The notes beneath the pieces are model-generated. The model worked only from the letters and a program-made list of their open reading frames with translations. It was not told where the DNA came from and searched no databases. Of a DNA stretch of 64,000 nucleotides, positions 16,076 through 30,786 are shown piece by piece. The stretch comes from Trileptium ribeirensis (Eukaryota > Nematoda > Enoplea > Enoplida > Thoracostomopsidae), in contig JASANE010003305.1 of NCBI GenBank assembly GCA_030248225.1, positions 38,373 to 102,372 on the forward strand, written 5' to 3'. How positions within the stretch are numbered: position 1 is the stretch's first letter; the number at the start of each line of letters is the position of its first letter. The translations under genes and the position numbers were made by a program.

Positions 16076-17918
16076 AGCCATTAAACAGAACGATCAACAT
16101 GAAATACTGTTTTCCGTGTTTGGCATAACCATTGAACCGGTGGTTTTGGAGGTCCTTTTTAATTATTGTCGTATCAGTATTTATAAATAAAATTTCATTT
16201 TTATAGTTCGCATATACTCATTATTTTGCAGCTGTACTTAACCAAAAATGCACTTATTTATTAAGGAGTGCAACAAACACTTGTTTTTGTAGTTTTGGCG
16301 ACTGAATGACAATTCAGGCAGCCGTGCCGTATGAGGATCAGTATTTTCTTGTTTTCGATATTTGAATGAGCGAAATAACTTACTATCGCTGGATGTGAGA
16401 GGGGTCCCCTCTTCCTCAGTTTGGACAACACAGCTGGGTGGCTGCTTGACTTACTTGACTTAATCCGCTTGCGTCCAAACTGAACTTAGAGCATAATCAC
16501 TTTGAAATATCTCTGATGACGGCTTTCTATCTATTTCGGTATGTAACCATATCGTTGTAATCCTAGGATTACTGCCACTGCTCAGTGTAAATAAATGACA
16601 GTCATAGTAAGCATACGACGAATTAATTAGTATCCGGCAAGCGGTGAGGAAACAAGCGAGCGTGAGACCAGTGAGTGTAATCTGTAAGTCTTCGATGTTT
16701 AAATGTATGAGGTAATGGGTGTGTTAGTATGCACTGTATCAGCATAATATCGGAATATAATTACTGAAGCTATCATGAAATGCAGCAAAACTGTTAATAA
16801 AGAAAAAGGTGTTTCTGCACGTAAAGCAAACCGACCTGCCAGTTAAGCTATTGTTTGGCAAGCGAAGACTACCTATTCAGGAAAGCGGGTTAGTCGAGTT
16901 TAAATCTGTTGATTCCCTTTAAACTTGGACATTTTACTTATGTTGAGCCGTAATATAACAGCCACCTTGTCAGCGTACCGGAAAACCTATGGAAACTATT
17001 ATAAATACATGTAAAGCCATAACCAAACAAGGTACTACATGTTATATTGTGATAATCGAGTTAGTCGATCTTAAAATTATCTCTGACCGTAACATATAGC
17101 CTAAATAACAAACTCATGGTATAGTGTGGCTTGGTCGACCTTAAAATTATCTCTGAACGTAAGATATATCCTAAATAATAAACCCATAATGTGTGTTAGT
17201 TGTACTGTGTAGCCATAGTGGGCTTCATAATCTTATAGGTACAGTCATGGACAGAAATAAATGCACAAAAAATGAACGCAACAACGTTCGTTTAGAAAAG
17301 AACGTTACAACGCTTGTTTGCGTTTACGTTCATTCTTAAACGAAAGCAAAAAATCGTTCTAAAATACGAAAGGTTTTGTTTACTTTCACGTTCCTTGTAA
17401 GCGAACGTTTTAACGTTCGTTTGCGTTTACATTTGTTCGCATTTCGCGTTGGTTGTTTATATTCTGGTTACTTATTTTTGATTTTAATAACGTGTCGAAA
17501 TATGAAAAGCCGATATTTTATGGCAAAGGGTTTGGTGCACTTGATTAGAGCCCATAATGGTCCAGGTCCCATAGAAACTGTTGTTCATCAAGCTACTCAT
17601 TTCTATAAACTGATTAGGCACGTACAGATTGTTTTTCGAAGTGACGTTTATATAATTAGATAGTCCGCAAGATAAAGGTAGCCGTTAACTACATTTAGCA
17701 ACCAGTTCTTAAAAACTATTTTTCGTGCATTTTTACATGTAAGTTGGTTCAGAGCTCGTAGCATCCTATTAAAGGGCATATCGTCATCTCTTTGACTATC
17801 AAAACATTTGTCGAACCCTGACCACACGAAGATGAGTTAAGAGTTATACCGACAGAAAAAATGTATTCTCTCACCCTTTTCGTCATAGCGCCCTCAGGGA
17901 AACCTACACTCCCCCCCC
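16076..17918. other. Intergenic DNA left of the Polinton
   Basis: Holds a ~69-bp direct duplication (about 17064 and 17133, sharing TTAAAATTATCTCTGA.CGTAA) and a cluster of GAACGTT/AACGTTC palindromic blocks at 17270-17430, next to TACAGTCATGGACAGAAATAAATGCAC at 17239, a string reminiscent of a Tc1/mariner-type end (inference). No gene recognised. Confidence 0.4.
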
Positions 17919-18080
17919 GACATTTTAACACATCTGTAAGGGTCTGATAGTGTTGTGAGCATTTTTAACACACCCGTAAGGGCGTAGTAGTGTTTTCGAC
18001 ATTTTAACACATCTGTAAGGGTGTAGTAGTGTTTTCGTATTTTTAACACATCTGTAAGGGTAGGATAGTGTTTTCAACAT
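17919..18080. repeat. Terminal ~40-bp tandem array, left TIR
   Basis: Four copies of a unit of the form ATTTTAACAC..CTGTAAGGG..TAGTAGTGTTTTCG, starting near 17921, 17961, 18000 and 18040. Internal differences between copies are not all shared with the right end, so the ends have drifted or exchanged units. Confidence 0.85.
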
Positions 18081-18115
18081 TTTGGCATCTCACCAAACGT
18101 GTAATTTTATTTTTC

Positions 18116-18121
18116 TTTATT
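18116..18121 (-). terminator. Poly(A) signal of left TIR ORF
   Basis: AATAAA on the minus strand about 95 nt beyond the stop codon of the TIR ORF; the same signal occurs at the matching place in the right TIR. Confidence 0.6.
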
Positions 18122-18215
18122 GAGAAAATTACATACACAATACAAATGAAGTATAATATATACATACACAACATATACAGCAAAATATAAATATTAACAT
18201 ATACAATATCTTCAT

Positions 18216-18548
18216 TTATTCCCTTGTAGCACCATACTGATGCACCAATTGATATTTTCGTCGCCGTGCATGAACTGGGTGGTCGTAGACGAATGCCGTT
18301 ATGACTACATTGCCTTCTGTCACCACACATAATATGCAGCCTGGTTCACCCGTCCATCCTCGATAGCCAATGACTTTGTTGAATATTTTGAAGTGCTCCA
18401 CCCGATTATCGTGTCGCTTGAAGTGATCATCGCCATTGAACACCGTTTCGTAGATATTTGCCTTGTAATCGTTGATGAGACGTGAATTTCCACTGGCAAC
18501 GTGACCAGTATGACCATGTACAAAGTGTTTACTGAAGTGGAGAAACAT
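18216..18548 (-). CDS. TIR-encoded protein of unknown function, left copy
   Basis: I do not recognise this ~110-residue protein. The frame is open from 18620, but the TATA box at 18606-18617 lies inside that longer frame, and an Inr-like TCAGT (18580-18584) follows at initiator spacing. The ATG at 18548 is therefore the likelier start. The protein is rich in H, K and R, with a central GWTGEPGC segment and a C-terminal HARRRKYQ basic patch; no signal peptide or membrane segment. It is transcribed outward toward the element end. The right TIR carries a copy differing at about five residues, all substitutions, suggesting the frame was under selection or insertion was recent. Its position and promoter suggest an early gene (inference). 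Confidence 0.7.
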   Translation of the reverse strand: MFLHFSKHFVHGHTGHVASGNSRLINDYKANIYETVFNGDDHFKRHDNRVEHFKIFNKVIGYRGWTGEPGCILCVVTEGNVVITAFVYDHPVHARRRKYQLVHQYGATRE

Positions 18549-18579
18549 GACAGACTGTTCTCGATGAATGAAAGTGTAA

Positions 18580-18617
18580 ACTGATTTAATAAATTGAAAT
18601 ACACTGGTATATATAAA
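18580..18617 (-). promoter_or_regulatory. TATA box plus TCAGT initiator, left TIR ORF
   Basis: Minus-strand TTTATATATACC at 18606-18617 with TCAGT at 18580-18584, about 30 nt downstream. This is the layout of an arthropod-type RNA polymerase II core promoter. The same arrangement occurs at 30078-30115. Confidence 0.55.
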
Positions 18618-18696
18618 CATTTCATCCCTGCCAAAGGAATCATCAGATGGCTTTACACCGTATACACGGTATTGGCTACCATTATGTTTTTTCTTT

Positions 18697-19002
18697 TTAC
18701 TTCAAATCAAACATATAACACAACTTAATAATATCATCATAATAATCAACATACAACATAGGGTATGACAATGATAATTCATACAAAGACTGTTTAAAAG
18801 TGTTTTCGTTCTTCATTATAAATTCCACCGCCTTGATAATTGCTTGTCGTCGTCGTTGAACCTTGAGCAAATTTTCTTCCTCTTTCGATCGCCCGTCGAT
18901 ATAGTCGCCTGTTGCTTCACATTGACGTCGAAACTCATCCACCCGGTTTTGCCAATAAGCAACTTCCTTTTGAAGATAAACGTTGCGCACGTATTGTTCC
19001 AT
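18697..19002 (-). CDS. Hypothetical coiled-coil protein, probably the frameshifted C-terminus of the preceding membrane protein
   Basis: About 101 residues from the first ATG at 19002; the frame is open from a TTG at 19026, and a TGA lies a few codons further upstream. Charged, heptad-like text (QKEVAYWQNRVDEFRRQC, then KEEENLLKVQRRRQAI) predicts an alpha-helical coiled coil. The frame overlaps the end of the upstream membrane protein by 68-92 nt in another phase, and has no TTCTTAAAAAGG motif or TATA box of its own. That protein's tail after the overlap looks like out-of-frame translation, so one ~260-residue protein with a single-base shift near 19040 is the simpler reading. No family recognised. 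Confidence 0.5.
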   Translation of the reverse strand: MEQYVRNVYLQKEVAYWQNRVDEFRRQCEATGDYIDGRSKEEENLLKVQRRRQAIIKAVEFIMKNENTFKQSLYELSLSYPMLYVDYYDDIIKLCYMFDLK

Positions 19003-19518: not shown

Positions 19519-19530
19519 GCTATTTAAGAC
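19519..19530 (-). promoter_or_regulatory. Conserved promoter-like motif before the membrane protein
   Basis: Sense GTCTTAAATAGC, a two-mismatch variant of TTCTTAAAAAGG plus a first-base change, 24 nt before the ATG at 19495. The TAA inside it is the stop codon of the major capsid gene. Confidence 0.55.
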
Positions 19531-20816
19531 ATTTTATTACAAAATACTTTATTTGAGTTAATGTTCAATTCAGCTGTAAATTCTCCCATTGCGAAAATCA
19601 CAATAGCCTTTTTCAACTCCTCTACAAAATCAATTGAAAGCCTCAATTGTCCATCTGGTGGGTTTGAAAGATAATTGCAATCACTGCTATGATCTCTGCT
19701 CAAATCAATACAAAATATTTGGTAACCTGCACCATGTCGAAAGCCAACTTCTGTTAATCCCAAATTTTCTGTTCTACCATTTAATGCATATAATGTATTA
19801 TAAAATAACCTCATATCATTGCCAACCTTACACGGTAAAGATATATTGCACGGGTATCTGTCATCGTTCATAAATACTGTAAAACTATTCATATCTGGTA
19901 AACTTAACTTAAACAAGTTTGACTTTGGTGCACCAGCATATGCTTCTTGCGTTATACCCCAAATGTATATTCTACGGGGTAATGATCCTTCAAAAATTGT
20001 CCAATCCACGTTTTGTAATCCTTTATTTACTGAAAGTGTTTGAACCTTGTATCGTATACTAGGAAATTTAACCCCACTACTATTTAGAATTTTATCTTGG
20101 TGTTCAAGAGCTTGTTTTATCAGCCTTGCTTTTGGTATGTAAAGTTTAAAATCGTTTATTCGAACTAAAAGTTTATTAGTTGGTTCATGCAACAAAATTA
20201 GTGATGGTGAACTTCGAGTAAATTTAAACTCTAGTCTACTTTTCGGGGGTAGATAAGTTGGTGTTAACTGTGAGTCTGTAATGATAGGAAAGTAAAGTTC
20301 ACATTTTTGTGACATTGAAGTCAACGCGTTCCTATAAACAGAACCTTCATTATCTTGTAGATCATCAAACATATACGTCTGATCGGGTTTGTAAAGACAT
20401 CCTGCCAAATATTGTTTCCTTTGCTCCTCACTCATATGTAGCATGTACAGCACATAAGTCATCCAAGGGTAATGCTTTTGGTTAAAGGTTATTGGTTCTC
20501 CATTAATTTTCATTTCAACTGAAGAAAAAAGTGCGTAGCCAAACATATTGCATGGTGTAAATTTAAGATTTGCCTCTTTAATCTCTTTGCCATCACCCTT
20601 TATAATTTGAAATTCAATATATGCGAAAATTTCTGATATATCAACTAAATCAAAAGCACTTTCACCAATTTTAAAACGAAACGAATCATCCGTATCTATG
20701 CTTGGTAACGTTGTTTCACATGCGACTTCCACCAGCTGTGTCGAGATGATCGATTGCTGAACGGGGTATTGATTCCCCTGCCAGTTAAGTTTTTCGACGC
20801 CGCATTCGTTTGCCAT
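19524..20816 (-). CDS. Major capsid protein, double-jelly-roll (Polinton MCP)
   Basis: 430 residues, intact. It matches the family often annotated in invertebrate genomes as F54H12.2-like, now understood as the Polinton hexon: after a short N-arm, a segment on FRFKIGES..DLVDISEIFAYIEFQI (residues about 46-73), then the LFSSVEMKING.PI and YPWMTYVLYML region (about 95-127), a long insertion with YLPPKSRLEFKF, a lysine/arginine helix (PKARLIKQALEHQ), and a second barrel from about 250. Pseudo-hexameric capsomers of the icosahedral shell would be its product. It starts 25 nt downstream of the motif at 20841-20852, overlaps the end of the 46-residue basic ORF by 24 nt, and its TAA stop lies in the next gene's motif. 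Length is typical for Polinton MCPs. No break. Confidence 0.85.
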   Translation of the reverse strand: MANECGVEKLNWQGNQYPVQQSIISTQLVEVACETTLPSIDTDDSFRFKIGESAFDLVDISEIFAYIEFQIIKGDGKEIKEANLKFTPCNMFGYALFSSVEMKINGEPITFNQKHYPWMTYVLYMLHMSEEQRKQYLAGCLYKPDQTYMFDDLQDNEGSVYRNALTSMSQKCELYFPIITDSQLTPTYLPPKSRLEFKFTRSSPSLILLHEPTNKLLVRINDFKLYIPKARLIKQALEHQDKILNSSGVKFPSIRYKVQTLSVNKGLQNVDWTIFEGSLPRRIYIWGITQEAYAGAPKSNLFKLSLPDMNSFTVFMNDDRYPCNISLPCKVGNDMRLFYNTLYALNGRTENLGLTEVGFRHGAGYQIFCIDLSRDHSSDCNYLSNPPDGQLRLSIDFVEELKKAIVIFAMGEFTAELNINSNKVFCNKMS

Positions 20817-20968: not shown

Positions 20969-21583
20969 TTACGAGAACAATAACCGAATGATAATTTTTG
21001 CTCCTTGAAAAAACTCCACGGGTTTGAATTCAGAGTCAAGCACTTCAAATCCAAGCACTTTAAACATACAGTTATTCAAGTCTAACGATATAGTATTTTT
21101 GGGTGCTGATATTACATGTAGCAATGGTTTGTATCTTCCATTCAACATTCGCTCTTTCACAAAGGAACCCATAAGGAAGCTTGGTTTGCACCTTCCAAGA
21201 TCCACACATTTATTCCCTGCGTGTCTACCATTTTTCAAATGAGGGTTTTCGAAGCCAAACAACTCCTGAATTTCGGAAAATAATTTTATTTCTGTGTTGT
21301 CTAGCAAATATACACTAACCATATCACAGCATGGGTTGACAGTAAACTCGATGCTGGTACTAAACATATTTAGGTATGAGCGTAGATTATCAATTGTATA
21401 GTATCCTTTTTCAACCTTAAATTGTTTCCACGACTTGTTTGAAAAATACTCAACGGTGCCACCCAGCATGTTTACATATTTATCGGGAAGCTGTACATCC
21501 AATACTCTAACTCTGGTTGCACAAAATGCCGTTGGAAACTCAACAGCCGGTTCGCTCAAGTCACATACAACAACAACTTCCAT
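20969..21583 (-). CDS. Minor capsid (penton-like, single jelly-roll) protein
   Basis: 204 residues, intact. The C-terminal half carries the family pattern of Polinton minor capsid proteins: I.ELFGFENP (residues 105-114), a VDLG turn (127-130), PLLHVISAP (153-161), and a closing F.P V.FF.GAKIIIRLLF strand pair (186-203). Polinton minor capsid proteins are thought to form pentameric vertices. The gene is followed 3 nt later by the next promoter motif and lies beside the MCP, the usual pairing. It starts 26 nt after the motif at 21609-21619. The assignment rests on pattern and neighbourhood, so it is less certain than the MCP. Confidence 0.72.
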   Translation of the reverse strand: MEVVVVCDLSEPAVEFPTAFCATRVRVLDVQLPDKYVNMLGGTVEYFSNKSWKQFKVEKGYYTIDNLRSYLNMFSTSIEFTVNPCCDMVSVYLLDNTEIKLFSEIQELFGFENPHLKNGRHAGNKCVDLGRCKPSFLMGSFVKERMLNGRYKPLLHVISAPKNTISLDLNNCMFKVLGFEVLDSEFKPVEFFQGAKIIIRLLFS

Positions 21584-21599
21584 GATTGATTACAATATT

Positions 21600-22604
21600 T
21601 TATTGAAGCCTTTTAAGAATATTATACACTGTATTGCACAACAAATAAAAATCATTTACACATTTACAACCTGTTATCACTACATTCCCACTACTGAAAA
21701 TCAAAGCTATACCTTTATTTAGGGTGAGCTTCATGCTATTATGCAGTTCGGTTTCATACATTACTGTGTAATTATTTCTAAGTTGCTCATAAAGATGTGT
21801 TAAATTTAATGTAAAGCCACTTCTTAGTAAACCAGCTACATTTACAACATGTGCTTGAGGTTTTGAGAAGCATTGATAGTCCAATTTTTGCAATTTTTCT
21901 CTCGCATTAAAAATTTCATTTTCTTCAAATTCTGACCTAACACCAACTAATACAAGCTTTCCATATGAAAAAATTAATATAGTTCCTCTAGGTTGAAATT
22001 TCCAAATACCACCATTAAACCGCAACATATCATAATCAAAGCCATCAATTTCACATGATAAATATAACAAGTCAACCCTACATCCAATGTTTGAAGTTAT
22101 TGTCATATTAGTTATTTCGCTTCGTCTCGAAAGTCCACCCAAAATGTTTTGTCCTTTCGACTGCGAGACAGCGCGATTTGACTGATCGTAGATACTTTTG
22201 CCGATCCCCCAATACTGATCCCATTCTGACGCCTCCGCTATTAGTGCGTTTTCCGTTCCGATGAGTGCCGCTCGTATATGAGGTAGTTGTTGAAACTTTG
22301 CTTCGAAACCCACTTTCATTATTGAAACCGCATTGTCCTTCTATTTCTCCGCGTCGAAATTTTTGATCTGACGACCTAGCTTCTTCTGTTGCGATGGTTT
22401 GAATGGTGACATTATTAATTGACATGTTTCCATGTCGTTGAAGTACCGCGTCCTCTCGCTCTGGTACCTCTGCTCCACACAATTGTATTTGACGCCGTTG
22501 ATTGTTATCCATCCGACATTGAAGTTGCTGAACACGCTCCATCCCGATCGAAATAATACGAGTGGTGTGCCGTCGTTTGTAGTGCAATATTTAGTATGTT
22601 CCAT
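21600..22604 (-). pseudogene. NADAR domain fused to a TATA-binding-protein-like domain, interrupted by one in-frame TAG
   Basis: One 335-codon frame from the ATG at 22604, broken once by TAG at 22341-22343. The first 87 codons are the N-terminal half of a NADAR (YbiA/DUF1768) fold: FSNFN, NCVEQRYQSERTRYF and KKLGRQIKNFD. After the stop the same frame continues with the NADAR C-terminus (EASEWDQYWGIG, then GQNILGG). NADAR enzymes are N-glycosidases acting on ADP-ribosylated nucleic acid or NAD-derived intermediates. From about residue 68 of the second part, a two-lobed TBP core follows: ITN.TITSNIGCRVDL, GTILIFSYGKLVLVG, then a second repeat HVVNVAGLL and ALIFSSGNVVITGCK. By position, three of the four DNA-intercalating phenylalanines of TBP are kept; the one expected after EL in lobe 2 is H. 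The stop falls where NADAR proteins usually have W, so TGG to TAG is the simplest origin. A TATA box drives it. Confidence 0.82.
21609..21619 (-). promoter_or_regulatory. Conserved motif before the minor capsid gene
   Basis: Sense TTCTTAAAAGG (one A shorter than consensus), 26 nt before the ATG at 21583. It lies inside the last codons (I-L-K-R) of the TBP-like domain. Confidence 0.6.
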
Positions 22605-22733: not shown

Positions 22734-22745
22734 CCTATTTAAGAA
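22734..22745 (-). promoter_or_regulatory. Variant of the conserved motif, upstream of NADAR-TBP
   Basis: Sense TTCTTAAATAGG, one base from consensus. It contains the TAG stop of the preceding small gene but lies 130 nt before the next ATG, much further than elsewhere, so function here is doubtful. Confidence 0.4.
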
Positions 22746-23160
22746 TAAAGTGTTCTCCATCTTGTTTTATGTTCCACAGCTCTACTTTTTCTACCCCTCC
22801 GAAATTCTGATAGGGGTACACTGCCCAGTAGCGTTTCAAATTTATCAGAGTCAAGAGGTCGAGGGGGTGAAAAGTTAACATCTGATATAAAGTACTTGAC
22901 CAAATCGAAAATATTGGAACCAACAGTTTTATCTGGGTATATTACTAGGTTGTTATCATTCAACTTTAAATCTTTCATGTTGTTTAACATTACGATTTAG
23001 CTTTATTTCGCAAATTTTTAGGAAACATAAGTGACAAGTCCGGTTTTTCTTTGCTTTCGTAAACATCCACTTCATTTCTAACTGGTGCTTTATCTTGCAA
23101 TCCACCATTTTTCATAGCATCTAGCCAACCTACTGGTACCACCGCCATTTTACGTGCCAT
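22735..23160 (-). pseudogene. Conserved small Polinton virion-type protein, two frameshifts
   Basis: Three overlapping frames read as one ~140-residue protein. Part 1 (23160 to 22990, 56 codons) begins MARKMAVVPV.W and ends FPKNLRNKAKS, then TAA. Part 2 starts at an ATG overlapping that stop (22990, TAATG) and holds the family-like KTVGSNIFDLVKYF and DSDKFETLLG segments. Part 3, in a third frame, ends with ELWNIKQDGEHFILK and a TAG lying inside a promoter-like motif (22734-22745), just as other genes end here. The order LP/FP...KA..L...GSNI.DL...F..LL matches a small conserved Polinton protein of presumed virion role. Part 2 and part 3 overlap, so the second shift lies near 22810. Translational coupling of separate small ORFs is the alternative. 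Confidence 0.55.
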
Positions 23161-23181
23161 AATGTTTATTGAAGTAATTAA

Positions 23182-23449: not shown

Positions 23450-23461
23450 CCTTTTTAAGAA
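23450..23461 (-). promoter_or_regulatory. Conserved motif before the basic core-like gene
   Basis: Sense TTCTTAAAAAGG, exact consensus, 26 nt before the ATG at 23424. Its TAA is the ATPase stop codon. Confidence 0.65.
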
Positions 23462-24207
23462 TATATAAACAACTGCTCATCGTCAGAGAATATATTCTGT
23501 CGTACCCTTAGTACACTCTCTGTAGCTGGTTTCAGATGAAGAAATAAATAACCATACGGCTCTCTAGTTGCTTGCTCAAATGCGTTTGATAGAAAATTGG
23601 GTGTTGGAGGCCACATTTGCCATCCCAAGGTATGTATCATTGATTGATCTCGAAAGTTGGGGAACAAAACCATATACTGAGCATTTCGTGTAATGGTTCG
23701 CATATATTTACCTTCATGGTATAAATTTTGGGTTACAAATATCGTGCTGAGCTTGTTGTGACGCATGCGAGAAAACGCTGCTGCCAACTTTTTGTCATTT
23801 GAGGCCTCAATCATTAAATCGTCGAGTATACAAATTGTATGTCCGTCAGATGACGGGAACTCTGTGGGTATGCCTTCGTAAAGTTCTAAATTTGGTATCT
23901 CGTTCATCATTTTACTATATACATCTTGAAAGATACTGTAACAATACAAAATTTTATCAACTTTTTGATCAAAAAACACATGTTTGAGTAATCGATATAT
24001 CCATTGCGTTTTTCCACTACCTGTTTGACCACTTACTACTCACGTGAACGGTAATTCCAGAGGTAATAGTACGCTATCAGTATCACAACTTTGAACGTCA
24101 ACTTGAGAAACTGGAGGTATATTTTGCGGTTGAGCTCTACTAGTTTTGTTATGTCTATGCAAATGCTGACGAGAAGTATAAACACGATTAACAGCTGATA
24201 CATACAT
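23455..24207 (-). pseudogene. FtsK/HerA-type genome-packaging ATPase (A32-like), one in-frame TGA
   Basis: 250 codons from the ATG at 24207. Walker A GQTGSGKT lies at about 24007-24030; Walker B ICILDD is at residues 49-54 of the part after the internal ATG at 23979; the sensor-like TQN follows at 83-85. This is the motor that pumps DNA into polintoviral capsids. An in-frame TGA at 24040-24042 sits four residues before the P-loop, where this family has a hydrophobic or cysteine residue, so the frame cannot give a full protein. Two short upstream ATGs (one followed after three codons by TGA) precede the chosen start. Length is normal for the family. The promoter motif is 35 nt upstream; the stop codon overlaps the next motif. 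Confidence 0.85.
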
Positions 24208-25868: not shown

Positions 25869-28800
25869 CTAAATGCCCAAATGTTCCTTATGCATTTCCT
25901 CCAAAAGTTCAACAAATTCAATGTCTCTATGTCCATATGCGTATGAAGTTATTCCATCGTTCGTGATATATCGTTTGTCATCATATGCTGATAGACTAGT
26001 CTTATTGATAGTCACCGTATTCAATATATGCTTTGTAGATCCAATCATATTCATTTTGTGTCGCATCGTATCACTGTTTAATAAAGTGTCCACATAGTTC
26101 TGATGTTTAATCTCTTTCTTGACTACCACCTTCTTTATCCCCTTTGCCCGTTTCTTTTCCATATCACCACATTTGATGCTATACATCTTTGACCGCAAAC
26201 CCACGAATTCTTTGATCGCTACTCCCGCGGTTTCGTCCTTCATCTTACCCAACACCTTTTTGTTAACTGTTGAGTAAAGTGGGTGTCCCGTTGGGTAATC
26301 ACTCGTATCGAAGAAAGTCGCGTTGTTTGCCATGTCTGTGTAGATATCATCGGTGTTAACTTCGTAACATAAAGAGTCTGTATCTGTGAAGAGAAGTCGA
26401 CATTGGTTACCATAGAATGCCTTCATATAGTTGTAGTGGAATCCGTACATCAACGACTTTGACAAATCGAGAATCGAAAATCCGACGTAGATTGGTTTGC
26501 ATAAATTGACCGTCTTGCGATGCATTTTGACTGCAACGAGGTCTTCTTTAAAGATTGACGACATTGAATATCGGGGGTTTGCAACTAATTTCGTGTATCG
26601 TTTTGTGTCCGTCACCAAATGTATATCAACATATCCTCGAACGTTTTCCATTGTTTTGCCGAACACAGCATTGTTTAAAAGTTTATAGAGATCTTTCTCA
26701 AAATCACTTGTTGCTGCCTTCCTCATCTCCGTGTTGAATGTGATGTATCGCTCCATCCACGCCCATTGAAAGAAGGAGACGACCCGGTGCACCTTTGTGA
26801 GTTTCATACCAAAACCGATGTATTGTTGGAGATTGCGAATGTGAACCTTGTAATGTTGTTTGTCATTGAGATTGGGTACCAACTTTTCGACCGCTGCATT
26901 TGATACGTTGAGTGTTTCCTTAATGTCTACGCAATACGATGATAACATATTATCCGTGATTTTCATCCGCTCGGGTGCGAGGGGGTAGTCGTTGTGAAGA
27001 TCATGGAGTCGCTCGGGGTACTCCAGATCGACCTCTAACACGTATCCTGTGTCACCATTGGTATCGACCGTATTCCAATCGATTGCATCAATATCTTCGT
27101 TTGACATCCATTTGAATGTATGACATGGTAACTTCTGCACCATCGACCAACCGTATAAATTGTTTGCGTCGAGGTACATAATGTATTTGTTGGGTTGGGT
27201 CTCACTATATCCATCGACGTATGGGTTATTCGCCTTTGAATATCGGTGGGAGATGACTGACACACCACCCCGTATACCGTCTTCGAAGAACGCGTACATA
27301 TCTGCATCGCTGATCAAGTCGAGCTTGACGCCGCTGTACTTGAGACATGCATCCCACGCGAAACTTGGAAGGGTGATGTAATGAACGGGGTCCAACTGGT
27401 ATTTGTCGAGTGCGAATCTTCGAAAGTTCTCGAAAACATCGCACAATAATAAAACATCCGTCTTGAGATAAATATCGTGATATTCTCCGACGTTTTTAAT
27501 CCCCATCTCCTTCCACACCGATTGTGCATGTATGTAGTCATTATCATTGATGTCATCACCGCTAAGCGATGAATAAAATGCTGATTGAGGAGGTAATTCC
27601 GTTTCATTGAATCGATGCACACTATCCATATACTCATACGGGTAAACCCCTTTGCGCAACATGAGATCCACTTTGTCACCAAAAGTATTCCTCATCGCTA
27701 CGAATGCGTCAATATCTTTTTTCTTTAAATTGTCTGTGAGAGTTTGTAGAGACGAGGGAAGAAATTGAATTGTATCGATAAATCTAATCTTCCACCCAAC
27801 CTCGTCCTCATCATCGGTGTCGTCATTGCCCAATATGAAATCCACACCTTCCATCTCTTCATCCCAACACTCATCGTTATCGTCTTCTTCACAATCTGCT
27901 TCACTCAAAATGAATGGGTTGCTGCTATCTTTGCCACTACAACTCTGTCGTTTCTTTGATTTGCGCTTGATTGAGAATGTCATGTAGTCTTCCATCCCCT
28001 TCGCGATACATTCGATCTCGAGTCCTTGCTCTTTACAAACTGCCCCGATTTCTTGCATGATCAAATGTCCATCATACCGTCGTAGGTTATGAAATAAAAC
28101 CGTGACGTCACGACTAAGACGGTAGCCAATGTTACATTTGAGGTGTGCTGCTCCACGGTACCGACCGCATAAGTGACAATGATCTTTTGCTTTATCATCT
28201 ATATTCAGCCATCCACCGCATAAGTAGCACACGACCGCATTGCAATGATTGATCCGACCATCCTCGGTCATAGTGATTGCTTTTTGATTGTCCATATAAC
28301 GCTGTTGAAATATTGTTGAGAGTTCAATAACTTTGTATAAGAACTTTTTGACCACGTCTTCACCACGGTATACGATCGGATCAGCGATTTGCAATTTGTC
28401 GCTGCAGCAACCGAACGCCTCGACTATGCCATATCCACATGGTTTATGACGTTGATATTGATTAGTATATGACGAGATTGGTGGTGGTTCGCTGGTGCTG
28501 ATCTTTTGAAGTATACATTCGAAATCCGCATACATAACATACGGTGCGCGTTGCATTCGGTGAATGTTAGTGAACTGAAGGGTAGAGCCGGGTTGTGGTA
28601 CCTGGACCTGAGATGGTTCCCCATTACGACAACGCTCCATATGATTTCGCCTTTGCTGATAGTTGTAGCAAGGTATTAGACAACGGTCACAAAAATATAA
28701 CATGCCTTTATTTCATCGTTGATCGAATAAAAGAGCGTCTAAGCTCCGTACCAAACAATGGTTCTTGTATAGTAGAAGGTGCACGTATTTTTCATGTTGA

Positions 28801-29893
28801 GTGTTTGATATAAATAGGGGGTATATGACGCCATCGTCCTCCAAACCATAGACGTTAATCGCGATGTTATTCTGCCGTTCGAATCGGAGTATGTCTTGAA
28901 ACGATACTGGGTAATGTATACCATTCATATTGAGTTCATTTTCATATGGTTGATAGTTATTAACACGTTCTGCATGCTGCTTCCGATCCACTGGGTGCAA
29001 TGCCGCCAATACTGACCATATGAAGCACTTGCTATCTTTGTTTTGAATATTTAAAACCGCGTGTTTGTTTCGAATCCATGTCGGTAACTCTCTGTATGTT
29101 GATCCTCGAAGGGGTTGGTATGTGCTGATGTGAACGTCTGCATGTTTGATGTCTTCTAGTATCCATCCGGACCCACGTGTTTCGAAATCTTCGAACTTCT
29201 TAATTAGTTCATTGAAGATACTTGTTATTTCTTCATTGATATTTGATCCTGGTAGTATAGACCGCACTTTATTGTTGAAATGTGCCGTCGTAGTTGCTCC
29301 ATCAAATTTGTTGAGGACACACTGAATGCTGATCCATAACTTGACACCTCGCCCACGTTCGTTGTGGAGAAGCTTTTCCAATATTGGTTGAGACTGCTTA
29401 AAGAACATTGAGAAATCATCGAGGGTCGCATTAGGTATAATATAGTAGCTCCGGATATACCCCTTGATCCATTGATCCAGAGGTAGACTGCATCGCTTTG
29501 ATCAACCAACTTTCCTTGTTGTCTGCAACCGTTGATATCATTCGCTATCGCAATAATGCAACCGAGATCGTCTTCAACACATCGCGTCTTTGATGGTATT
29601 GTTTCATCTCGGTCCACCGATCGTTTCTGCACCGTTGTTTCGAGCTGTGGTACTGCTTGACTGAGGTCTGAAACGTTGTTGTGCTGCTTGCCTGATATCT
29701 TTGATTTCTGACCTGTTGACGTTGTCTGGTTGTGCCATCGCTTGACGTGTCCCACCAACGTGTCTTTGCATGAAAACACATTGCCACATTGTTCGCACTT
29801 CCATTCCATCACTTTGTGAATACTTTGGTTGTGTCGCGTTAAATGATCACGTCTCGAGAATTCGATATTACACCGGTCACATCGTAGTGCCAC
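25869..29893 (-). pseudogene. Protein-primed family B DNA polymerase with N-terminal zinc fingers, one frameshift and one in-frame TGA
   Basis: About 1340 codons, the replicase. Two C2H2 fingers open it (CDRC..EF..RDHLTRH, then CEQCGNVF...L.GHVKRWH; 29720-29885). A frameshift near 29460-29510 moves into the second frame, with the typical pre-polymerase region (GSGWILEDI, YQPLRGS.Y.ELP, NVYGLED). TGA at 28713-28715 interrupts that frame; it continues three codons later at the ATG at 28703 with the 944-residue core: CDRC zinc knuckle, ExoI YADFE (58-62), treble-clef CYLC...DHCH..GRYRGAAH..C (159-190), ExoII YDGH (210-213), ExoIII YLKTD (412-416), motif A DANNLYG (512-518), motif B KLLNNAVFGKTMEN (674-687), motif C DTDS (774-777). 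Residues 246-301 are a basic then strongly acidic insert. There is no ATG before finger 1; a GTG sits at the expected start. Confidence 0.92.
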
Positions 29894-29894
29894 A

Positions 29895-29905
29895 GCTTTT
29901 AAGAG
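29895..29905 (-). promoter_or_regulatory. Conserved motif variant before the polymerase gene
   Basis: Sense CTCTTAAAAGC, two bases from consensus and one A shorter. It lies only 2 nt from the GTG where the reading frame plausibly starts, so spacing is unlike the other genes. Confidence 0.4.
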
Positions 29906-30061
29906 ATTATAACGTAAATTAAGTTACTAGCTTTATTAATAATTTCCTAAAATCAACGACTGTTTGTTAGTGAAGCAAAACGAGAATGATTTGAAAAATA
30001 AAAATTCACTTCTTTTTATACTCTAAAATCTGGCACTGTGCCAACCAGCTAAACCACGCGC
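29906..30061. other. Intergenic between polymerase and right TIR
   Basis: Short AT-rich interval with two runs of stops in the polymerase frame. It contains tttttatactctaaaa (30014 area), a possible weak TATA-like string in either direction. Confidence 0.35.
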
Positions 30062-30077
30062 TGGCAGGGATGAAATG

Positions 30078-30115
30078 TTTATATATACCAGTGTATTTCA
30101 ATTTATTAAATCAGT
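30078..30115 (+). promoter_or_regulatory. TATA box plus TCAGT initiator, right TIR ORF
   Basis: TTTATATATA at 30078-30087 and TCAGT at 30111-30115; spacing about 30 nt. It leads the ORF starting at 30147. Confidence 0.55.
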
Positions 30116-30146
30116 TTACACTTTCATTCATCGAGAACAGTCTGTC

Positions 30147-30479
30147 ATGTTTCTCCACTTCAGTAAACACTTTGTACATGGTCATACTGGTCACGTTGCC
30201 ACTGGAAATTCACGTCTCATCAACGATTACAAGGCAAATATCTACGAAACGGTGTACAACGGCGATGATCACTTCAAGCGACAAGATAATCGGGTGGAGC
30301 ACTTCAAAATATTCAACAAAGTCATTGGCTATCGAGGATGGACGGGTGAACCAGGCTGCATATTATGTGTGGTGACAGAAGGCAATGTAGTCATAACGGC
30401 ATTCGTCTACGACCACCCAGTTCATGCACGGCGACGAAAATATCAATTGGTGCATCAGTATGGTGCTAAAAGGGAATAA
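30147..30479 (+). CDS. TIR-encoded protein of unknown function, right copy
   Basis: Second copy of the ~110-residue protein of the left TIR, on the opposite strand, also transcribed outward. Differences from the left copy are a handful of substitutions (for example A/T after GHV, F/Y in ETVYNG, H/Q in KRQDN, T/K near the end), with no indel. As on the left, an in-frame ATG at 30075 precedes the TATA box, so the ATG at 30147 after the TCAGT site is preferred. The stop TAA is followed by AATAAA at 30581. No family recognised. Confidence 0.7.
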   Translation: MFLHFSKHFVHGHTGHVATGNSRLINDYKANIYETVYNGDDHFKRQDNRVEHFKIFNKVIGYRGWTGEPGCILCVVTEGNVVITAFVYDHPVHARRRKYQLVHQYGAKRE

Positions 30480-30580
30480 ATGAAGATATTGTATATGTTA
30501 ATATTTATATTTTGCTGTATATGTTGTGTGTGTATGTATATATTATACTTCATTTGTATTATTGTGTATGTAATTTTCTC

Positions 30581-30586
30581 AATAAA
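30581..30586 (+). terminator. Poly(A) signal of right TIR ORF
   Basis: AATAAA about 100 nt after the TIR ORF stop, conserved in the left TIR. Confidence 0.6.
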
Positions 30587-30786
30587 GAAAAACAAAATTA
30601 CACGTTTGGTGAGGTGCCAAAATGCCGAAAACACTATCCTACCCTTACAGATGTGTTAAAATGTCGAAAACACTACTACGCCCCTACGGGTGTGTTAAAA
30701 TATCCGAAAACACCATTATACCCTTACGGGTGTGTTAAAATGCCCGAAAATACTATCATGCCCTTACGGGTGCGTTAAAATATCGA

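Follow-up and report, generated by a model that had tools for sequence, protein, structure and literature searches.

Neighbouring NADAR and TBP genes in a decayed Polinton-like element of the nematode Trileptium ribeirensis

The locus and the element around it

The stretch of DNA analysed here (64,000 nt in all, hereafter the window) carries, on its minus strand from 22604 to 21600, a NADAR domain and a TATA-binding protein (TBP) core in one frame that is interrupted by a single internal TAG (22343-22341). When the pieces on either side of this TAG were searched separately against Pfam, NADAR was matched both before it (PF08719, E=6e-10, 40.1 bits, profile positions 12-83) and after it (E=1.9e-13, 51.4 bits, profile positions 87-153), each part exceeding the curated cut-off of 35.1 bits, and TBP was matched in two stretches (PF00352, E=7e-26), so that all three matches lie above the Pfam cut-offs. 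The NCBIfam models agree in kind (NADAR and TBP), all of them under their curated cut-offs, and the solved structures nearest to this piece are TBPs, the best being human TBP (1cdw, 1.9e-14). The sequence-only reading of this DNA, which had described a NADAR fold and a two-lobed TBP core in one TAG-broken frame and would have fallen had profile searches returned no TBP, is borne out to this extent. This TAG falls within the NADAR domain, where it separates profile positions 83 and 87, and not at a domain boundary; the TBP frame is open across the whole TBP profile. The features of the locus are as follows.

18156..18633, no strand: left terminal inverted repeat, inner part, complementary to 30062-30539
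19524..20816, minus: major capsid candidate, an ORF of 430 aa named by size and order only
20969..21583, minus: penton-like candidate for a minor capsid protein, immediately after TBP, with a homologue at the equivalent place in relatives
21600..22106, minus: TBP gene starting at a separate ATG (22106-22104), 168 aa, two repeats, open (Pfam TBP, solved TBPs, start as in close relatives)
22134..22337, minus: NADAR C-terminal part without the last residues and stop (Pfam NADAR, shorter spacing to TBP)
22341..22343, minus: premature TAG within the NADAR domain, flanked by profile positions 83 and 87
22344..22604, minus: N-terminal part of NADAR, 87 aa, running from the ATG up to the TAG (Pfam NADAR)
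22739..23181, minus: small ORF ('SM') preceding NADAR, divided between two frames in this copy
23455..24039, minus: packaging-ATPase candidate, an open frame of 194 aa homologous to the ATPase ORF of the related locus L004
24599..25666, minus: integrase region with chromodomain, two open frames with a stop between them (Chromo, weak rve)
25869..29923, minus: PolB-like region with a zinc-finger N-terminus, three open frames (ORFs, motifs by eye)
30062..30539, no strand: right terminal inverted repeat, inner part, complementary to 18156-18633

The element that holds the NADAR and TBP of the window is Polinton-like and decayed, and the proposal that they are encoded in a Polinton setting has held. 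Its host is an animal, as shown by 44 Wnt matches, with 0 in 14 control genomes. The likeness of the element to Polintons/Mavericks consists of terminal inverted repeats (478 nt, 99% complementary, 18156-18633 versus 30062-30539), a chromodomain with a weak RVE match, an A32-type ATPase in a relative, and penton-, MCP- and PolB-like ORFs recognized by order and motif; it differs in carrying NADAR and TBP genes. One integrase piece matches Chromo above the cut-off (1e-11) and its neighbour matches rve at 2.4e-4, with 21.7 bits against a Pfam cut-off of 32.6. The ATPase ORF of L004 matches Pox_A32 above the cut-off (7.9e-6), and the candidate ORF in the window itself has no Pfam match. The label 'penton-like' is presumed from position and from the usual Polinton gene order, the ORF having no Pfam or PHROG match, and the 430-aa major capsid candidate has no Pfam, PHROG or meaningful PDB match. 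Similarly, the PolB-like region is taken to be such from polymerase motifs recognized by eye, with no Pfam PolB and no PDB match, its Pfam matches being a weak endonuclease VII and zinc fingers. No adenovirus-type protease was found among the 10 window ORFs scanned with Pfam. NADAR, the small ORF, the integrase and the PolB-like region are broken or split in the window; open frames are kept by TBP, the ATPase and the penton-like and MCP-like ORFs. Each terminal repeat also holds an open frame of 150-161 aa (18216-18701, minus; 30027-30479, plus). The outer ends of the repeats (17918-18142 and 30560-30785) look like short satellite-type repeats, which blurs the boundaries of the element and with them the ends at which a target-site duplication would lie.

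Relatives in the host genome and the NADAR-TBP junction

A search of the 687-Mb host assembly (20229 contigs) returned at least 150 matches for NADAR, at least 152 for the window's own piece (P0002) and at least 150 for TBP, from 2317, 1234 and 975 first-look candidates, respectively. Among 85 locus entries chosen by NADAR or TBP matches, 82 have TBP and 74 of those also have NADAR; once duplicate entries for one place were removed (L051, L052, L081 and L082), 70 distinct loci with both genes were left, including the window. Some of these, L004 and L005 for example, lie on different contigs yet are almost identical. Among the entries displayed, those of sufficient length repeat the order ATPase, small ORF, NADAR, TBP, penton-like gene. 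The gene pair is real, much copied and conserved, and the cassette has diverged into about a dozen subfamilies (at 75% identity the complete NADARs fall into 13 groups and the complete TBPs into 12). In the intact L004, NADAR scores 139.5 bits and TBP 1.1e-32 over two stretches, and predicted models reach a mean pLDDT of 96.0 for NADAR and 92.8 for TBP. L001-L003 have NADAR without TBP, in whose place lies an ORF of 188-189 aa with no convincing family match.

Both genes are complete in 42 entries, corresponding to 39 distinct loci, and in none of these 39 are they contained in one uninterrupted ORF. The relatives within this genome have a NADAR closed by a stop codon and a TBP that opens with a separate ATG, the distance between the two (measured to the TBP ATG nearest the profile start) being exactly 5 nt in 22 of 41 loci and 1, 2, 11, 24 or 132 nt, or an overlap of 4-47 nt, in the remaining ones; in L010 the gap cannot be measured in this way since the joined frame ends with TBP. 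The distance between the N of NILGG and the I of ITN is 33 nt in the window, 44 nt in most of the close relatives compared and 46 nt in L024. The window junction is 11 nt shorter than in most of these relatives and, therefore, the end of NADAR and its stop are missing and TBP falls in the frame of NADAR. An ORF is shared between part of NADAR and TBP in eight entries, the window included, and NADAR is incomplete in each.

These findings bear directly on the central claim of the sequence-only reading, namely that a single bifunctional NADAR-TBP protein is encoded, in which case the TAG would be a late mutation or a sequencing error. Apart from this TAG the window is indeed in one frame, and L010 has an open frame of 351 aa spanning NADAR profile positions 1-157 and TBP positions 2-170. 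However, the last part of NADAR in L010 is displaced into another frame, as if produced by an indel, the window lacks the NADAR end that is present in close relatives, and the uninterrupted two-domain homologue that had been called for is absent from all 39 complete loci. A single fusion protein was rejected on this census of the sampled relatives and is almost certainly not what these elements make, the apparent one in the window being accounted for by the shorter junction. The idea that one factor combines promoter recognition with ADP-ribose reversal is left with no physical link, and what remains is two separate functions encoded side by side. It had also been anticipated that the reading would fail if the two domains were always separate genes in homologues with a stop at the position of the TAG: separate genes were found, but their stop lies at the end of NADAR rather than at the TAG.

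Some fusion could in principle be produced from intact copies by programmed -1 frameshifting. The frame of TBP relative to NADAR is offset by -1 in 28 of 41 loci, and many of these 28 have 487-507 nt of open TBP frame across NADAR, as such a mechanism would have it. The offset is, however, 0 or +1 in the other 13 and differs between subfamilies: seven loci are in phase (L010 and, with a stop codon separating the two genes in every case, L004-L008 and L079) and six are at +1. Moreover, the opening across NADAR, taken by TBP group, is 0-119 nt in nine, 301 nt in L073 and 507 nt in L076, and by eye no obvious slippery site precedes the stop in the junctions displayed. With an offset that changes from one subfamily to another there is no conserved frameshift, and this explanation, which we consider very improbable, was rejected. 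A conserved N-terminal extension of TBP overlapping NADAR was rejected too, the upstream opening not being generally conserved.

NADAR and TBP are thus very probably two separate genes, and the window holds a decayed copy with a false fusion. Genomes of this lineage would carry separate, tightly packed NADAR and then TBP genes, with the packaging ATPase on one side and the penton-like gene on the other; in the window copy, a stop inside NADAR and a junction shortened by 11 nt would make TBP seem to continue the NADAR frame. Translation of TBP would start at the ATG of that gene, possibly through re-initiation on a message spanning NADAR and TBP. The case calls for caution, as a fused protein can be mimicked when a compact viral genome is read from a single decayed copy.

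Other neighbours are found joined in individual copies. In L001 (952-1944) a single open frame holds both the small ORF and NADAR, which lie in separate frames in L002 and L003; this is a joining of the same accidental kind where closely packed genes meet. A single open frame likewise covers TBP and the penton-like gene in L074 (1547-2770) and L075 (1371-2435), the penton-like profile being complete in the former and partial in the latter; here again, neighbours are joined.

Selection, active site and DNA-facing positions

Pairwise dN/dS was summarized as medians in four bins of rising dS (0.03-0.2, 0.2-0.6, 0.6-1.2 and >1.2), after pairs with dS under 0.03, saturated dS or fewer than 120 codons had been dropped, which left 321 of 1225 pairs for NADAR (50 sequences), 1048 of 1540 for TBP (56 sequences) and 456 of 903 for the penton-like gene (43 sequences). 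The medians were 0.16, 0.18, 0.13 and 0.20 for NADAR (81, 68, 117 and 55 pairs), 0.24, 0.19, 0.23 and 0.23 for TBP (148, 159, 122 and 619 pairs) and 0.21, 0.16, 0.12 and 0.17 for the penton-like gene (71, 171, 1 and 213 pairs), values that come from stop-free frames only, and so are biased towards the low side, and from pairs that are not independent. NADAR and TBP are both under purifying selection, near the level of the penton-like gene. It might be argued that the two are host-derived passengers with no viral role, given that many copies are broken and that the host has a TBP of its own (on contig C9496). Nevertheless, dN/dS is well below 1 in every divergence bin and near that of the penton-like gene, the two genes keep a fixed place in the cassette and the catalytic residues are retained, which makes passengers decidedly improbable.

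The retention of these residues was scored in 50 complete NADARs, using the numbering of the Phytophthora nicotianae protein (PMC11543638) mapped via an alignment to its structure (8bau). E43 is kept in 49 of them (L083 has Q), K50 in all 50 and E125 in 46, three of the four exceptions at E125 matching the L001-L003 group, in which this position is Y or N. The P. nicotianae protein is a YbiA-type NADAR, with which L004 aligns at 2.3e-11 and with which the equivalents of E43, K50 and E125 are held in common; the present NADARs differ from it in being Polinton-borne, in the Y or N of L001-L003 at E125 and, for the window, in an Arg at the K50 position. Tested NADARs hydrolyse guanine-linked ADP-ribose (PMC11543638, PMC11125620), the K95R variant of the E. 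coli C7 NADAR kept its activity in vitro and lost toxin rescue (PMC11543638), and nucleic-acid and small ADP-ribose targets have been argued for in different viruses (PMC9503650). Because a YbiA-type active site is combined with this activity of tested homologues, the Polinton NADAR is predicted to free guanine of ADP-ribose, its targets being either viral DNA or RNA or else small derivatives of ADP-ribose, a prediction to which we give about an even chance. A search of the host genome for a DarT-type transferase yielded none.

TBP positions were scored in 56 proteins, including that of the window, and are given in yeast numbering, with the DNA-contacting, intercalating and TFIIB-contacting roles assigned by that numbering. 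N69 (56), F99 (56), F116 (54, with W in 2), N159 (53), E186 (55), E188 (56), F207 (50, with Y in 5) and T215 (55) are largely kept. On the DNA face, V71 is replaced by Thr in 54 of the 56, every protein has Val or Leu in place of T124, and 29 retain V161. Among the four presumed DNA-intercalating phenylalanines, three positions are aromatic in at least 55 of 56 proteins; the fourth, F190, is H in 39, Y in 9 and F in 2. Given the changes at V71, T124 and F190 and the mixed state of V161, ordinary TATA binding by the viral TBP may be weakened or lost. Since the TFIIB-facing E-x-E motif (E186 and E188) is kept while three DNA-facing positions are changed, the protein is predicted, with what we see as an even chance of being right, to meet host TFIIB and to read a different or looser promoter. 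Judged against expectations from single-base shuffles, which are a weak control, TATAWAW lies within 160 nt upstream of NADAR in 32 of 67 loci (17.9 expected), of TBP in 11 of 68 (4.8 expected, 8 of the sites at one position), of the penton-like gene in 13 of 67 (21.1 expected) and of the small ORF in 2 of 60 (18.6 expected). By this weak scan, TATA-like boxes show some enrichment before NADAR and TBP and none before the other two.

Relation to known systems and implications

Beyond the host genome, P0002 had no match at E<=0.001 in the protein database among 699 candidates and none in IMG/VR. The alignments fared as follows: that of TBP found 8 loci in IMG/VR, none of which matches the other Polinton proteins tested, and 202 matches in the protein database, and that of NADAR found none and 9, respectively. 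Among the matches listed (120 of the 202 for TBP), the best relatives on ENA contigs are P0003, on 10.5 kb, and P0123, on 8.2 kb and at 59% to L004. As these are metagenome contigs, the NADAR and TBP genes are not confined to the host genome. The metagenomic P0125 resembles, by eye, the NADAR subfamily of L001-L003. The viral TBPs share with eukaryotic TBPs and insect TRFs the two-repeat core, many DNA-facing positions and the TFIIB-facing ones, and differ from them in that the equivalents of V71, T124 and F190 are nearly always replaced. In a tree, 10 of the 12 viral groups cluster, although not strongly (88/56), L079 and L083 join P0003, P0004 and P0008 (99/100), and the viral TBPs are not placed with three insect TRFs, in a topology whose deep support is weak.

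The sequence-only reading knew of no described NADAR-TBP fusion or Polinton TBP, and the open-access literature searched agrees: it yielded neither of these, no description of a Polinton together with NADAR, none of a NADAR domain together with a TATA-binding protein and none of a NADAR-TBP gene pair in Polintons. Term searches of PMC11071308, PMC11071296, PMC10120064, PMC4028283 and PMC8097293 found neither NADAR nor TBP/TATA, and articles mentioning both Maverick and NADAR are unrelated, judging by their titles and the start of their abstracts. NADAR is known in phages, in NCLDVs (phycodna-, mimi-, irido- and ascoviruses) and in RNA viruses, according to PMC9503650, in whose main text 'polinton' and 'adinto' occur 0 times. 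TBP genes are described in repeats of putative mirusvirus origin in PMC10675990. NADAR domains are reported in many animals in PMC11125620, and some of these could be elements such as the present one, unnamed as such.

How might the two genes serve the virus? A TBP with a TFIIB-facing E-x-E would bring TFIIB and Pol II of the host to viral promoters, its own DNA preference being changed. NADAR, as a separate enzyme, would strip guanine ADP-ribose from viral nucleic acid during infection or, alternatively, would break down ADP-ribosyl signals. Taken together, a two-gene module of animal Polintons can be tentatively proposed, and it is rather doubtful as yet, in which TBP would provide private access to Pol II and NADAR would undo guanine ADP-ribosylation of viral DNA or RNA by the host. 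If true, this would imply that there is an animal antiviral defence based on ADP-ribosylation of nucleic acids. Polintons are thought to lean on host transcription; the conserved viral TBP suggests that some of them bring their own promoter selectivity, and its conserved neighbour, NADAR, that ADP-ribosylation is a pressure which Polintons face in animals.
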